Positions 26,759 through 49,704 of a DNA stretch of 64,000 bases are shown here, piece after piece. A model generated the notes under the pieces. That model did no database searches, was not told the origin of the DNA, and saw only the letters and a list, made by a program, of their open reading frames with translations. Numbering within the stretch: the stretch's first letter is position 1; each line of letters starts with the position of its first letter. The translations under genes and the position numbers were made by a program. The DNA is from Halarcobacter sp. (GTDB lineage: Bacteria > Campylobacterota > Campylobacteria > Campylobacterales > Arcobacteraceae), in the NCBI RefSeq assembly GCF_963676935.1, contig NZ_OY781470.1, forward strand, positions 1 through 64,000. Reading direction: 5' to 3'.

Positions 26759-26844
26759 TGGTCGTATAACTCAGTGGTAGAGTGGCACCTTGACATGGTG
26801 TTGGTCACTGGTTCAAATCCAGTTACGACCACCATTGGATTTAA
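26759..26844. repeat. attL-type direct repeat (86 bp, whole tRNA-Val gene)
   Basis: Identical at every base to 32196-32281. It begins one base before the tRNA gene and continues 10 bases past the CCA end (ATTGGATTTAA block). It marks the left junction of the integrated element. Confidence 0.9.
26760..26834 (+). tRNA. tRNA-Val (anticodon GAC)
   Basis: A 75-base cloverleaf with encoded CCA. The acceptor stem is GGTCGTA/TACGACC, the T arm ACTGG-TTCAAAT-CCAGT and the anticodon loop TTGACAT, giving anticodon GAC. It follows the 100-residue protein gene by 6 bases and keeps the chromosomal upstream sequence, so this copy is the likelier to be expressed from the native promoter. Confidence 0.95.
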
Positions 26845-32195: not shown

Positions 32196-32281
32196 TGGTC
32201 GTATAACTCAGTGGTAGAGTGGCACCTTGACATGGTGTTGGTCACTGGTTCAAATCCAGTTACGACCACCATTGGATTTAA
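32196..32281. repeat. attR-type direct repeat (86 bp, whole tRNA-Val gene)
   Basis: Identical to 26759-26844. Upstream sequence differs completely from the left copy, and downstream sequence diverges after the shared ATTGGATTTAA, which fixes the repeat limits. Confidence 0.9.
32197..32271 (+). tRNA. tRNA-Val (anticodon GAC), second copy
   Basis: Base-for-base identical to the copy at 26760-26834, including the encoded CCA. It was created by insertion of the element. Its upstream sequence belongs to the element, so expression would need a promoter there. Confidence 0.93.
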
Positions 32282-42498: not shown

Positions 42499-43460
42499 TT
42501 TATTCCTGCTTCAATTAAATCATGGATATGTAATACACCTATTATCTCATTATTTTCATTAGTAATAATTAAAAGCTGTATTTTATAGTTTTCTACAATC
42601 TTTAAAGCATCACTTGCCAATAGATTTTTGTTGTTAATAGTTTTAGGATTTTTAGTTGAGATTGTTTCTACACTGTTTTCTATAGAGAAGTTTTCACTCA
42701 TCAATGCTCTTCTTAAGTCACCATCACTTAATACCGAATGTAGATGCTTGTTTTCATCAACAACTAAAACATTTCCTAGTCTACCTTCACTCATTGTTAC
42801 TATTGCATCTTTAATTTTAGTTTCACGTGAAACAATAGGTAGATTATCTTTTTTTAATAGGTCATCTACTTTGATAAAAAGCTTTTTCCCTAAACTTCCC
42901 CCTGGATGAAATGAAGCAAAATCTTCTTTTTGGAAATCTCTTTTTTTCATAAGACATACTGCCAATACATCCCCCATAGCTAAGGTTAAAGTTGTAGAAG
43001 AGGTTGGGGCAGTATCTAATGGACAGGCTTCTTTTGTAACACTTATATCTATAAATATATCAGAATATTTACCTAAAGTTGATTCAGCATTTTTTGCCAT
43101 AGCTATCAATGGGATATCAAATCTTTTTATATGAGGTAATAGTTGAATTAACTCTTCACTTTCACCACTATATGAGATACCAAGAACTATATCATCCTTT
43201 CCTATCATCCCTAAATCGCCATGCATGGCTTCTGTTGGATGAAGGAAAAAAGATGAAGTACCTGTGCTTGCAAGTGTTGCAGCAATTTTTGCACCTATAA
43301 GTCCAGATTTACCTACACCTGTTACAATCACTTTCCCTTTACAATCATAAATTAAATCTATTGCTTTTTCTATATCAAAAGAGGAGATATTATCAGAAGC
43401 TATTTTTAGTTCATTTGCTTCAATATCTAAAACCTCTTTTGCTATTTTATTAAAATCCAT
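42495..43460 (-). CDS. Arabinose-5-phosphate isomerase, KpsF/GutQ/KdsD family
   Basis: A 321-residue sugar isomerase making arabinose 5-phosphate for Kdo and lipopolysaccharide. The SIS domain (residues 25-180) contains GVGKSGLIGAKIAATLASTG and EAMHGDLGMI with ISYSGESEEL. Two CBS domains follow (about 205-320). A 16-base parS-like sequence lies inside the coding region at 42819-42834, encoding VSRET of the first CBS domain. Upstream is rnj (9 bases). Confidence 0.92.
   Translation of the reverse strand: MDFNKIAKEVLDIEANELKIASDNISSFDIEKAIDLIYDCKGKVIVTGVGKSGLIGAKIAATLASTGTSSFFLHPTEAMHGDLGMIGKDDIVLGISYSGESEELIQLLPHIKRFDIPLIAMAKNAESTLGKYSDIFIDISVTKEACPLDTAPTSSTTLTLAMGDVLAVCLMKKRDFQKEDFASFHPGGSLGKKLFIKVDDLLKKDNLPIVSRETKIKDAIVTMSEGRLGNVLVVDENKHLHSVLSDGDLRRALMSENFSIENSVETISTKNPKTINNKNLLASDALKIVENYKIQLLIITNENNEIIGVLHIHDLIEAGIK
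42819..42834. promoter_or_regulatory. parS-like ParB binding site 1
   Basis: AGTTTCACGTGAAACA matches the bacterial parS consensus TGTTTCACGTGAAACA at 15 of 16 bases, with a perfect 14-base palindromic core. It lies inside the kpsF-type gene. Intragenic parS sites are normal. Confidence 0.8.
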
Positions 43461-47034: not shown

Positions 47035-47703
47035 ATGAAGTTTTTTAATCTATTGTTTTTGCCAGTTATTGGTTTTTCTTTTCAATTAGAATTTACAAAA
47101 GAGTTTACACATCAATTACCTCATGATACATTAATTGCAAATGTAATGATTACGATTGAAGATGAATCAGAAAGTATTGTAAATGATAGATTTAAAGTAT
47201 TCAATAACAAAATAAAGAACTTCGATATAGTTGAAAGAGAACTAGAAAAATTTAATATAAGACCTAAATATCGTCATATATCTAGTACTCCAAAAATTAC
47301 TGGATATATTGGAGAATTAAGGTATAAAGTGAATTCATATAAAGCAAAAGATATGCATATGTTTATTTCTGAACTTACAGAGTTAAAACGATTTAGAGAT
47401 ACTACAGTGTCTGTAAGTAATTTATCTTGGAGTGTTAAAGAGGAAACATATAATGTAACTTTAGATTTATTAAGATTTGAGGCAATAAGTTGGGGTAATA
47501 CTTATGCAAATAATTTATCAAACGATTTAAAGAAAAATTGTGTTCTTGAAAAAGTTAAAATTGCTAGAGATAAAATAAATGATAATAGTAATGTAAATAT
47601 ACTTTATAGTAATACTTTAAACAATTCTAAAGATGTAGATGTTCCTGATGCTAAAGAGGAAAGAGTGACAATATACCCTAAATATTTTTTGGAGTGTAAA
47701 TGA
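47035..47703 (+). CDS. SIMPL-domain (DUF541-like) periplasmic protein
   Basis: A 222-residue secreted protein with a short signal peptide (residues 1-15, FLPVIGFS). The mature part resembles the SIMPL/DUF541 family (LPHDTLIANVMITIEDESES, then NIRPKYRH, GYIGELRYKVNS and VSVSNLSWSV). It begins one base after hisF and overlaps the next gene by 4 bases. The family is periplasmic with poorly known function. Confidence is moderate because the sequence is diverged. Confidence 0.7.
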   Translation: MKFFNLLFLPVIGFSFQLEFTKEFTHQLPHDTLIANVMITIEDESESIVNDRFKVFNNKIKNFDIVERELEKFNIRPKYRHISSTPKITGYIGELRYKVNSYKAKDMHMFISELTELKRFRDTTVSVSNLSWSVKEETYNVTLDLLRFEAISWGNTYANNLSNDLKKNCVLEKVKIARDKINDNSNVNILYSNTLNNSKDVDVPDAKEERVTIYPKYFLECK

Positions 47704-48245
47704 TAGTTTGTGCAGGAAGAAATGAAACTTTTAATTTTGCTCAACCAATAGGAGTTGGTTTAATTGAAAGTGCTATTAATTTAACAAGACAATGTTTATT
47801 TGATAAACCCGAATTTTTACTTTTTATTGGTAGTGCTGGAAGTTATGGAAATCACAATATTTTTGATATAGTTGAATCTAAAAGAGCAGCTAATATTGAA
47901 CTTTCATTTTTAAATGATGATTCATATACTCCTTTAGACAATGTTTTAGAATCTGAAAATAAGATGGTTAAAAATGATACTATTGTAAATAGTTCAAATT
48001 ATATATCTAAAAATTTTGAATTATCTAAGCAGTTAAATCAATATGGAATTGGTATTGAAAATATGGAGTTTTTTTCAATAGTACAAGTTGCACGTGAATT
48101 TGAAATACCAGTTGCAGGGATATTTGTAATTACAAATTTTACAAATGAAAATGCACATAAAGATTTTATGGCTAATCACAAAGAAGCTATGGGAAAGTTA
48201 ACTAAGTATCTAGAAGAAAAGAAAATTATAAAAAGTTTCACGTGA
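47700..48245 (+). CDS. Nucleoside phosphorylase superfamily protein
   Basis: A 181-residue protein of the PNP/UDP phosphorylase superfamily, shorter than usual (about 230-270). The glycine-rich phosphate-binding area FLLFIGSAGSYGNHNIFDI and the nucleoside-site block GIGIENMEFFSIVQVAREFEIPVAGIFVITN (described in pieces: IENMEFFS with the ribose-binding Met-Glu) are present. It is probably a purine nucleoside phosphorylase or nucleosidase. The last five codons and the stop are part of a parS-like site. Confidence 0.7.
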   Translation: MIVCAGRNETFNFAQPIGVGLIESAINLTRQCLFDKPEFLLFIGSAGSYGNHNIFDIVESKRAANIELSFLNDDSYTPLDNVLESENKMVKNDTIVNSSNYISKNFELSKQLNQYGIGIENMEFFSIVQVAREFEIPVAGIFVITNFTNENAHKDFMANHKEAMGKLTKYLEEKKIIKSFT

Positions 48246-48249
48246 AACA
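48234..48249. promoter_or_regulatory. parS-like ParB binding site 2
   Basis: AGTTTCACGTGAAACA, identical to the site at 42819 and 15/16 to the parS consensus. It spans the stop codon of the nucleoside phosphorylase-like gene. Confidence 0.8.
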
Positions 48250-48253
48250 CCGT

Positions 48254-48421
48254 TAAGAAAACGTAAACAGTTTTACGTTTTTAGGTGTTGAAAGCGAAGT
48301 GGTATGCAAAGCATCCACGAAGCTCGAGGAACGTCGTAAAGAAAATATGAACTGCTTCACATTTTTAGGTGTTGAAAGCGAAGTGGTATGCAAAGCATCC
48401 ACGAAGCTCGAGAAACGCATA
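48254..48421. repeat. Two tandem 84-bp units, each with two hairpins
   Basis: A 56-base core (48278-48333 and 48362-48417) is identical except for one base. It contains the stem GTGGTATGC/GCATCCAC (48299-48318 in unit 1) with loop AAA, and CTCGAG. Each core is preceded by a second hairpin (48258-48281; 48342-48365) whose sequence differs between units while pairing is mostly kept. Confidence 0.85.
48258..48281 (+). terminator. Intrinsic terminator after the nucleoside phosphorylase-like gene
   Basis: AAAACGTAAA and TTTACGTTTT form a perfect 10-bp stem with loop CAGT and a following T. It is the first hairpin of tandem unit 1. Confidence 0.65.
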
Positions 48422-48636: not shown

Positions 48637-49704
48637 ATGAATTCTATTTATGACTACACATTAGATGAATTAAAAGGAAAATTAAAACCTAGTTTTAGAG
48701 CAAAACAAGTTTATAATTGGATATATAAAAAATATGTAACTTCATATGATGAGATGAAAAATATTCCAAAAGATTTAATTCAAGAGTTGAAAGAAAACTA
48801 TCCATTAGATATTTTAGAAATAGTAAAAAAAGAAAAAAGTACTGATGGAAGTATAAAATATTTATTTAAATTAAGAGATGGGCATACAGTTGAATCTGTA
48901 CTTCTTTTAATGAAGAAAAAAATAGTAAATGATGATGGAAGTGTTGAGCAAAGTGAAAAGTTTACTGTATGTATTTCAACTCAAGTTGGATGTAAAGTAG
49001 GTTGTACTTTTTGTCTTACAGCAAAAGGTGGATTTGTTAGAAATTTAATAGTTGGCGAAATAGTAAATCAAATAGTACAAATAAAAAGAGATAACAATAT
49101 TCCTGAAAATAAAACATTAAATATTGTATTTATGGGAATGGGTGAACCACTTGACAATTATGATAATTTTGTTCATTCAGTAAAGGTGTTTTCAGAAGAA
49201 GATGGCTTAGCAATAAACAGAAGAAGACAAACAGTATCAACTTCAGGTTTATCAACAAAAATTGAAAAACTTGCAAATGAAGAGTTAGGAATTCAATTAG
49301 CTATTTCATTACATGCGGTTGATGATGATTTAAGAAGCGAATTGATTCCTATGAATAAAGCTTATAATATTAAATCAATTATCGATGCGGTTAGAAAGTT
49401 TCCAATTGATACTAGAAAAAAAGTTATGTTTGAATATTTGGTAATAAAAGATAAAAATGATGATATTGAATCTGCTAAGAAACTATTAAAACTATTAGAT
49501 GGAATTAAAGCTAAAGTAAACTTGATATATTTTAATCCATATCCAGGTACTTCATATCAAAGACCACAAAGGGATGATATGGTAAAATTCCAAGAATATT
49601 TAACAAGTAGAGGTTTATTATGTACAATTAGAGAATCAAAAGGACTTGATATCTCTGCTGCATGTGGACAATTAAAAGAGAAGGAAACAAATGCAAGCTC
49701 TTGA
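48637..49704 (+). CDS. rlmN: 23S rRNA/tRNA adenine-C2 methyltransferase RlmN
   Basis: A 355-residue radical-SAM enzyme that methylates A2503 of 23S rRNA and A37 of some tRNAs. The Fe-S motif is VGCKVGCTFC near residue 115; the second catalytic Cys lies in ISAACGQL near the C-terminus. VFMGMGEPLDNYDNF and AISLHAVDDDLRSELIPMNK match RlmN rather than Cfr. Its last codons overlap a small membrane-protein gene. Confidence 0.95.
   Translation: MNSIYDYTLDELKGKLKPSFRAKQVYNWIYKKYVTSYDEMKNIPKDLIQELKENYPLDILEIVKKEKSTDGSIKYLFKLRDGHTVESVLLLMKKKIVNDDGSVEQSEKFTVCISTQVGCKVGCTFCLTAKGGFVRNLIVGEIVNQIVQIKRDNNIPENKTLNIVFMGMGEPLDNYDNFVHSVKVFSEEDGLAINRRRQTVSTSGLSTKIEKLANEELGIQLAISLHAVDDDLRSELIPMNKAYNIKSIIDAVRKFPIDTRKKVMFEYLVIKDKNDDIESAKKLLKLLDGIKAKVNLIYFNPYPGTSYQRPQRDDMVKFQEYLTSRGLLCTIRESKGLDISAACGQLKEKETNASS

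Follow-up and report, generated by a model that had tools for sequence, protein, structure and literature searches.

A Dispersed Family of Two-Hairpin DNA Elements, Seemingly Undescribed, Is Widespread in Relatives of Campylobacter

Introduction

REP and BIME elements of the GTAG class, which are accompanied by RAYT proteins, are small dispersed palindromes that lie mostly behind genes, are possibly mobile and may act on transcripts (PMC3733652, in the portion available to us). The same portion lists REPs of a second class, CGTC, for Sulfurovum sp. NBC37-1, a member of the phylum that is studied here; these have no associated transposase, and their features are stems of 8–9 bp whose first two positions are AT, loops of 4–5 bases and a tail reading CCA (PMC3733652). 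Miniature elements of the IS200/IS605 group carry hairpins, a bulged T and a motif in the left flank and are not known to have terminal inverted repeats (see also PMC6006769). Intrinsic terminators consist of a stem and a T-tract and often stand right behind genes and tRNAs. The BOX elements of Streptococcus, from another phylum, are built of modules, one of which is repeated in tandem.

In the open-licence literature of PubMed Central, we found no comparable family of small elements in the phylum Campylobacterota. The nearest reported ones are the CGTC and GTAG REPs of Sulfurovum, as far as the available part of the source goes (PMC3733652). In this study, we analyzed two tandem units in a stretch of 64,000 nucleotides from Halarcobacter sp., called the window throughout. 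The units are copies of a dispersed noncoding DNA element that measures about 85 bp and contains two unlike hairpins. This family is widespread in relatives of Campylobacter and apparently undescribed, and it adds a widespread family of small elements to the phylum.

Results and Discussion

Two Tandem Units Overlapping a parS Site

The two units occupy positions 48241–48324 and 48325–48408, with a spacing of 84 and an identity of 86% when aligned. Their 56-base cores (48278–48333 and 48362–48417) show a single difference, 48329 G against 48413 A. In the inner stem of the first hairpin, the pair 48262 C–48277 G of unit 1 is replaced by 48346 T–48361 A in unit 2, and 48265 A–48274 T by 48349 G–48358 C; the sole mismatch left over in the hairpin of unit 2 is 48347 A/48360 C. 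An earlier note on this DNA had described the 84-bp units and their cores correctly to the base, and the two compensatory changes and the one mismatch that it had reported stand in the sequence as it gave them. It had further seen a second stem, which is present and longer than given there, and had placed the units next to a parS site, which indeed overlaps the start of unit 1.

This second stem reads AGC[GAA]GTGG(T)ATGC-AAA-GCATCCAC[GAA]GCT in both units. An outer arm around hairpin 1 had been overlooked: AACACC pairs with GGTGTT in unit 1, and AACGTC with GGTGTT, including two G-T pairs, in unit 2. The order of the fold within a unit is an outer arm, an unpaired GTTAAG, a 10-bp A-tract/T-tract stem closed by a loop of four bases, then the other outer arm, and a separate stem 2. 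The features of the locus are as follows.

47700–48245, plus strand: upstream gene, nucleosidase-like; futalosine hydrolase matches it weakly, well short of the cut-off
48235–48248, no strand assigned: parS palindrome GTTTCACGTGAAAC, the right half of which, GTGAAAC, is the 5' start of unit 1
48244–48248 (GAAAC), 48328–48332 (GGAAC) and 48412–48416 (GAAAC), plus strand: GAAAC near-direct repeats bounding the units, read from the sequence
48246–48289, plus strand: unit 1, hairpin 1, with outer arm 48246–48251/48284–48289 and bulge GTTAAG at 48252–48257
48258–48267/48272–48281, plus strand: unit 1, inner stem of hairpin 1, with loop CAGT at 48268–48271
48293–48324, plus strand: unit 1, stem 2, with a 3x3 GAA/GAA internal loop and one bulged T
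48330–48373, plus strand: unit 2, hairpin 1, with outer arm 48330–48335/48368–48373 and bulge GTAAAG at 48336–48341
48342–48351/48356–48365, plus strand: unit 2, inner stem of hairpin 1, with one A-C mismatch and loop CTGC at 48352–48355
48377–48408, plus strand: unit 2, stem 2, identical to stem 2 of unit 1
48637–49704, plus strand: downstream gene rlmN

The three GAAAC-like repeats are likely the slippage points of a tandem duplication, and similar repeats bound the element in relatives, too. RNA folding of the two-unit stretch yields z −4.4 on either strand, with none of 200 shuffles as stable. Folded alone as single-stranded DNA, unit 1 reaches z −4.0 and −3.6, and unit 2 only −1.1 and −1.8, so that unit 2 is partly decayed. 

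No ORF of at least 80 aa covers the units. The unit length of 84 is divisible by three, and of the six frames, two are open across most of both units; within 48241–48420, a short minus-strand frame opens with ATG. A coding repeat, which stops do not exclude, is disfavoured by unit lengths in relatives (G013 and others) that are not multiples of three. Integron attC sites were considered and dropped as a candidate.

A Dispersed Family with Covarying Stems

Sequence and covariance searches of the same genome revealed no further units besides the tandem pair. The core, for which the earlier note had proposed to search, and its pairing are both present in relatives; the outcome that this note had named as refuting, a core confined to the locus and lacking conserved pairing in relatives, did not occur. 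In a DNA search of 60 genomes including this one, 24 were matched at E 0.01, some of them weakly. A covariance model, likewise proposed there, was built from 17 copies and matches 155 of the 398 genomes of the order, presumably Campylobacterales, from 51 of 87 genera, at E 0.01; counting the listed best E-values, 145 of the 398 reach 1e-4 or better. The model scores unit 1 with 105.2 bits (48244–48330) and unit 2 with 99.1 bits (48328–48414), both copies belonging to its training set. Two distant comparisons gave 3 of 286 genomes in the phylum of the Ca. Campbellbacteria seed and 2 of 291 in the class of the Clostridiales seed at 1e-4, the seed genome included in each case. The highest number of matches in one genome is at least 12; numbers per genome are lower bounds, with about 11–15 candidates per genome scored in the large searches. 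The reading as a REP-like family in the earlier note was thus right in substance, as the element is dispersed, hairpin-forming, present in many genera and often found behind genes.

The exact hairpin pattern occurs in 59 stretches of a collection of 84,980 species, which by title comprise 52 of Campylobacterota type, five of Patescibacteria type, one of Clostridiales and one "bacterium". Viral contigs contain no match to this pattern, and a virus origin was set aside on this count, plasmids and named phages lying outside that search. Rfam comparisons of the window and 16 loci give no family at its gathering score for the element; there are just matches at chance level, e.g., ctRNA_pT181 with E 1.6.

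The outer arm of hairpin 1 is locus-specific and the GTTAAG-like unpaired stretch is conserved. Within the outer helix, 57 of 79 distinct copies have GTTAAG, GTTAAA or GTAAAG as this foot. The loop of hairpin 1 is CTGC in 56 of the 79, and its inverse, GCAG, in none. At three loci (L006, L008, L053), an extra small AGAGAGTGCAAGCACAAG-like hairpin lies behind hairpin 1, as if modules had been added.

Among the 17 copies of the model, 93.9% of the cells are paired, compared to 33–45% in slid controls, and 19 of the 27 pairs are altered on both sides. An alignment of 112 distinct copies (A4), which was fitted to the model and whose counts lean towards structure, shows 93.8% of cells paired and double changes in 26 of 27 pairs. 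Its covariation amounts to 0.572, against 0.130 when shuffled and at most 0.067 when slid, and none of 500 shuffles reaches the observed pairing.

A check free of fitting used 57 copies of the exact pattern, whose arms lie outside the pattern; copies at contig ends, duplicates and copies containing N were dropped. The mean Watson-Crick run is 4.54, compared to 1.58 with swapped partners and a maximum of 2.07 in 1000 swaps. The variable inner 4-mers, of 21 kinds, are complementary in 52 of the 57 copies. In the outer arm, pairing at positions 2, 3 and 5 is 0.89, 0.86 and 0.68 (swap 0.34, 0.36 and 0.35), falls to 0.19 at position 6 (swap 0.26), and is 0.47, 0.67 and 0.37 at positions 7–9 (swap 0.22, 0.33 and 0.22). 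Outer pairing runs have a length of exactly 5 in 27 copies and of 9 in seven. The family is real, and its covariation is strong.

Comparison with Described Elements

By the tests made, the family belongs to neither the GTAG nor the CGTC REPs, and it is REP/MITE-like in behaviour. It shares with the GTAG REPs a dispersed, extragenic and hairpin-forming nature and a location mostly downstream of genes (the nearest upstream ORF presents its end in 38 of 52 copies). It differs from them in its two unlike hairpins per unit, in the GT[AG]G foot, which is not found directly at the stem here, in the Y1/RAYT gene, which copies flank at none of 39 loci, and in number, the most matches in any genome being the at least 12 given above. 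From the CGTC REPs it is set apart by a 10-bp stem opening with an A-tract, the GTTAAG bulge, the outer arm and the second stem; their tag, stem and CCA tail were not found here, a separation based on the textual description of that class (PMC3733652).

Unlike the miniature IS200/IS605 elements, the units lack a neighbouring transposase at the loci examined, and GAAACA flanks the element on both sides. Of the hairpins with bulged T at both ends of those elements, the bulge recurs in stem 2, and the ends of the element are not fixed to the base. IS200/IS605 elements are not known to make such repeats on both sides. The likeness to the BOX elements is one of architecture and concerns the tandem module: at the parS locus of G006 (C1, about 167300–167800; L005/L026/L195), eight stem-2 cores at 60-bp spacing follow a single hairpin 1. 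In contrast to intrinsic terminators, the conserved paired parts of the element continue beyond the T-tract.

On balance, we favour a family of DNA hairpins that is new and REP/MITE-like, which may also terminate transcription and whose pairing is kept mainly at the DNA level. Such an element would spread, or would once have spread, in the manner of the small mobile DNAs classed as REPs and MITEs, and its insertion would take a GTGA-like sequence on the left. Since parS would offer this left target on both strands, copies could come to lie on either side of parS with the same half-site polarity. Once placed, the A-tract/T-tract hairpin would probably terminate the upstream gene. The tandem at this locus would have arisen by duplication between GAAAC repeats. 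Two processes, alone or together, would maintain the pairing, mainly at the DNA level: recognition of the DNA in its folded form and correction of the palindrome by template switching.

Gene Ends and the Level of Pairing

An alternative that we rate as rather unlikely places the selection on host RNA: the element would be an elaborate intrinsic terminator or 3'-UTR structure, shaped by selection on the RNA of the gene strand and inherited vertically behind certain genes, such as groEL-like ends and tRNAs. Gene positions were counted for 52 pattern copies, some of them neighbours in one array. Within 60 nt upstream, a gene end is found in 20 copies and a gene start in one, which agrees with this reading as well as with the favoured one; the other 31 copies lie further off, with 18 gene ends and 13 starts. 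At any distance, the nearest upstream ORF presents its end in 38 cases and its start in 14. A TGA at one fixed place before the arm occurs in 21 of 57 copies, against 9.4 expected from column frequencies, and is often the stop codon of the upstream gene. Several copies follow groEL-like ends, as judged by eye. The host-RNA reading further agrees with the T-tract behind hairpin 1 (fixed in the search pattern), with the strong RNA folding, and with a loop and bulge kept in one orientation.

Among the Patescibacteria-side copies checked for tRNAs, seven of 12 lie directly behind a tRNA gene (L140, L150, L154, L166, L223, L231, L232), again in favour of a host RNA. The other five do not (L142, L182, L222, L224, L233), L142 and L222 coming from a genome titled "bacterium". 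In all seven, the 3' arm of the element pairs by eye with the tRNA end (Lys, Leu, Ala, Glu), and one Ala case, L150, needs a two-base bulge for this.

What weighs against selection on a host RNA is, in part, the architecture of the element, as two conserved parts, the outer 3' arm and stem 2, follow after the T-tract, at which a terminated RNA has already stopped. The terminator scan flags nothing at the units here, though its rule needs three G-C pairs. One copy (L017, 1494–1584) precedes a 16S rRNA gene, between direct repeats of about 20 bp, which is an odd site for a terminator. It is one of three equal-scoring copies on G039:C1 (the others at 810166 and 1646663), two of which were checked and are identical.

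The pairs themselves also bear on this question. Selection on an RNA leaves G-U pairs, not A-C. The 112 copies contain 44 G-T and 50 A-C cells beside 2556 Watson-Crick cells, with G-T/A-C counts of 9/6 in the outer arm, 5/5 in the inner stem (beside 1106 Watson-Crick), 9/29 in stem2a and 21/10 in stem2b. The acceptor and T stems of 44 unique tRNAs, chosen by ARAGORN, which disfavours A-C, served as a control and show 499 Watson-Crick, 29 G-T and no A-C cells. The difference to this control is significant over all helices (p 2.7e-8) and for hairpin 1 alone (14 G-T, 11 A-C; p 4.7e-5). The strand test is not clean, as 29 of the 50 A-C cells lie in stem2a, the helix with the least certain alignment; without it, 35 G-T stand against 21 A-C (p 0.08), and the difference to tRNA persists (p 3.7e-5). 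In stem2b alone, the lean towards G-T (p 0.07) has the direction expected of an RNA or of one DNA strand and gives a little support to a strand-specific fold.

A clear excess of G-U over A-C, as expected of structured RNA, is not found over all helices. Because non-Watson-Crick cells of both kinds are rare and near-equal, unlike those in tRNA stems, the pairing looks largely DNA-level. The compensatory changes are real, yet by themselves they do not point to RNA. The earlier note had taken such paired changes as direct evidence of a kept fold; the changes stand, but the conclusion is too strong, as replication template switching can alter both arms together (PMC8794818). Its suggestion of a tandem regulatory RNA finds no support, given that Rfam yields nothing at threshold and that strand bias in the pairing is slight or absent. 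The family offers a natural test of whether paired stem changes must mean RNA function: the near absence of a G-U excess points to DNA.

Further observations concern the neighbourhood of some copies. Four of the copies named above (L140 873–1036, L154 6811–6939, L166 5739–5913, L232 1422–1586) begin a few bases behind tRNA genes, and by eye their stem 2 seems to be followed by a third hairpin, rich in A/T, and by a GTGAC end. At L011, L027, L021 and L171, from at least two groups, elements lie within or at the end of CRISPR-like arrays, joined to truncated repeats. The window itself holds two tRNA matches, at 26760–26831 and 32197–32268, both with 71.2 bits and 5.4 kb apart.

Possible Rewriting of the Arms or Template Switching

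The tRNA cases allow another reading, in our judgement an improbable one: a mobile hairpin the outer arm of which is rewritten at each site to match the neighbouring gene (tRNA ends in Patescibacteria), with parS half-sites on either strand docking it in Campylobacterota. If true, it would mean re-templating integration by some enzyme common to two distant phyla.

Alternatively, the covariation might result from nothing more than template switching during replication of a palindrome, the element having neither function nor mobility. This process is described (PMC8794818, partial source), and it would fit both an inner stem nearly without intermediates and outer arms that match even the ends of different tRNAs. 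We consider it quite unlikely as the whole explanation. Nearly half of the outer runs end at exactly 5 and pairing drops at position 6, yet positions 7–9 exceed the swap values. Moreover, the GTTAAG bulge and the CTGC loop are kept in one orientation, and for the loop this is not what template switching with loop inversion would favour.

Mobility and Y1 Transposases

Stem 2 was compared among 39 hand-picked loci. Likeness is 0.72 within a genome across loci (36 pairs), 0.59 within a family and 0.43 between families (540 pairs). In G170 copies are up to 0.97 alike, most copies within a genome are clearly diverged, and those of G016 are as unlike (0.43–0.57) as copies between families; thus, no recent jump is demonstrated.

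Movement by a RAYT or Y1 (HUH) transposase, as for REPs and relatives of IS200/IS605, appears very doubtful. The bulged T in stem 2, a recurrent short motif in the left flank and terminal inverted repeats that were not seen would suit it. At a first look at hand-picked genomes, Y1 occurred in 14 of 19 with the element and in none of 11 without it; over all 398 genomes, it is found in 79 of 155 with and 62 of 243 others (odds ratio 3, p 3.6e-7, kinship uncorrected). Against such a transposase, the surroundings of the Y1 genes, to about 1.5 kb, contain no element at the 39 loci used out of 40, which represent 36 distinct places (L089/L099, L091/L096 and L095/L097 being pairs of the same gene, and L098 omitted as the same gene as L094). 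In addition, 27 of 58 genomes with at least four matches lack a Y1 transposase, and the genome studied here, which has elements, yields no match to the Y1 protein at the thresholds used. The Y1 protein, of about 256 aa with NHYH, YIEQNP and an HTH-like tail, fits subclass 2.1, for which REPs are not reported in the available part of PMC6006769. With a weak association over the 398 genomes and no linkage in the 39 loci, RAYT/Y1 is not supported as the mobiliser. In family f20, many genomes have the Y1 homologue with a single in-frame TAA, which suggests a truncation that is old and shared.

The parS Locus

In Halarcobacter sp., the right half of parS contains the TGA stop of the nucleosidase-like gene. 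By eye, the order nucleosidase, parS, rlmN was followed through the 16 genomes of the genus. The element lies on the rlmN side of parS in six of them (G000, G006, G010, G013, G014, G015), on the nucleosidase side in two (G003, G009) and on both sides in two (G004, G005); G003 has an additional decayed copy on its other side of parS. In G001 only stem 2 is left, the remnants at parS in G008 and G012 are doubtful, and the site is bare in G002, G007 and G011, as it is in other genera. In all cases that were read, the element has the parS half-site as its 5' end. Comparing the rlmN side of the occupied G015 with that of the bare G009, the element sits between two GAAACA stretches, and a bare parS could reflect loss between such repeats. 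Adjacency to parS recurs in two further genera, represented by G024 and by G032 (decayed, with a one-base parS variant). Three genera (g1, g10, g18) consequently share the element-parS locus, on either or both sides; a dispersed element is recurrently found against a chromosome segregation site.

A parS accessory, i.e., hairpins that act with ParB or SMC at a centromere-like site and are hence kept only here in this genome, is highly improbable, for although the shared locus, the constant half-site and the position of the only copies found in this genome would agree with it, bare sites exist within and outside the genus, the second parS of the genome has no element, and the dispersed copies inspected lie away from parS except L062. 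The element is thus not present at parS sites generally.

Support for a position of this parS near the origin was not found: no dnaA was seen by eye among ORFs of at least 150 aa over the initial 4.5 kb of the contig, and parB lies at 2.16 Mb. With up to one mismatch, the 3.1-Mb genome has only one further parS, which is without hairpins; it is located at 42820–42833 of the window, apparently inside a minus-strand coding region.
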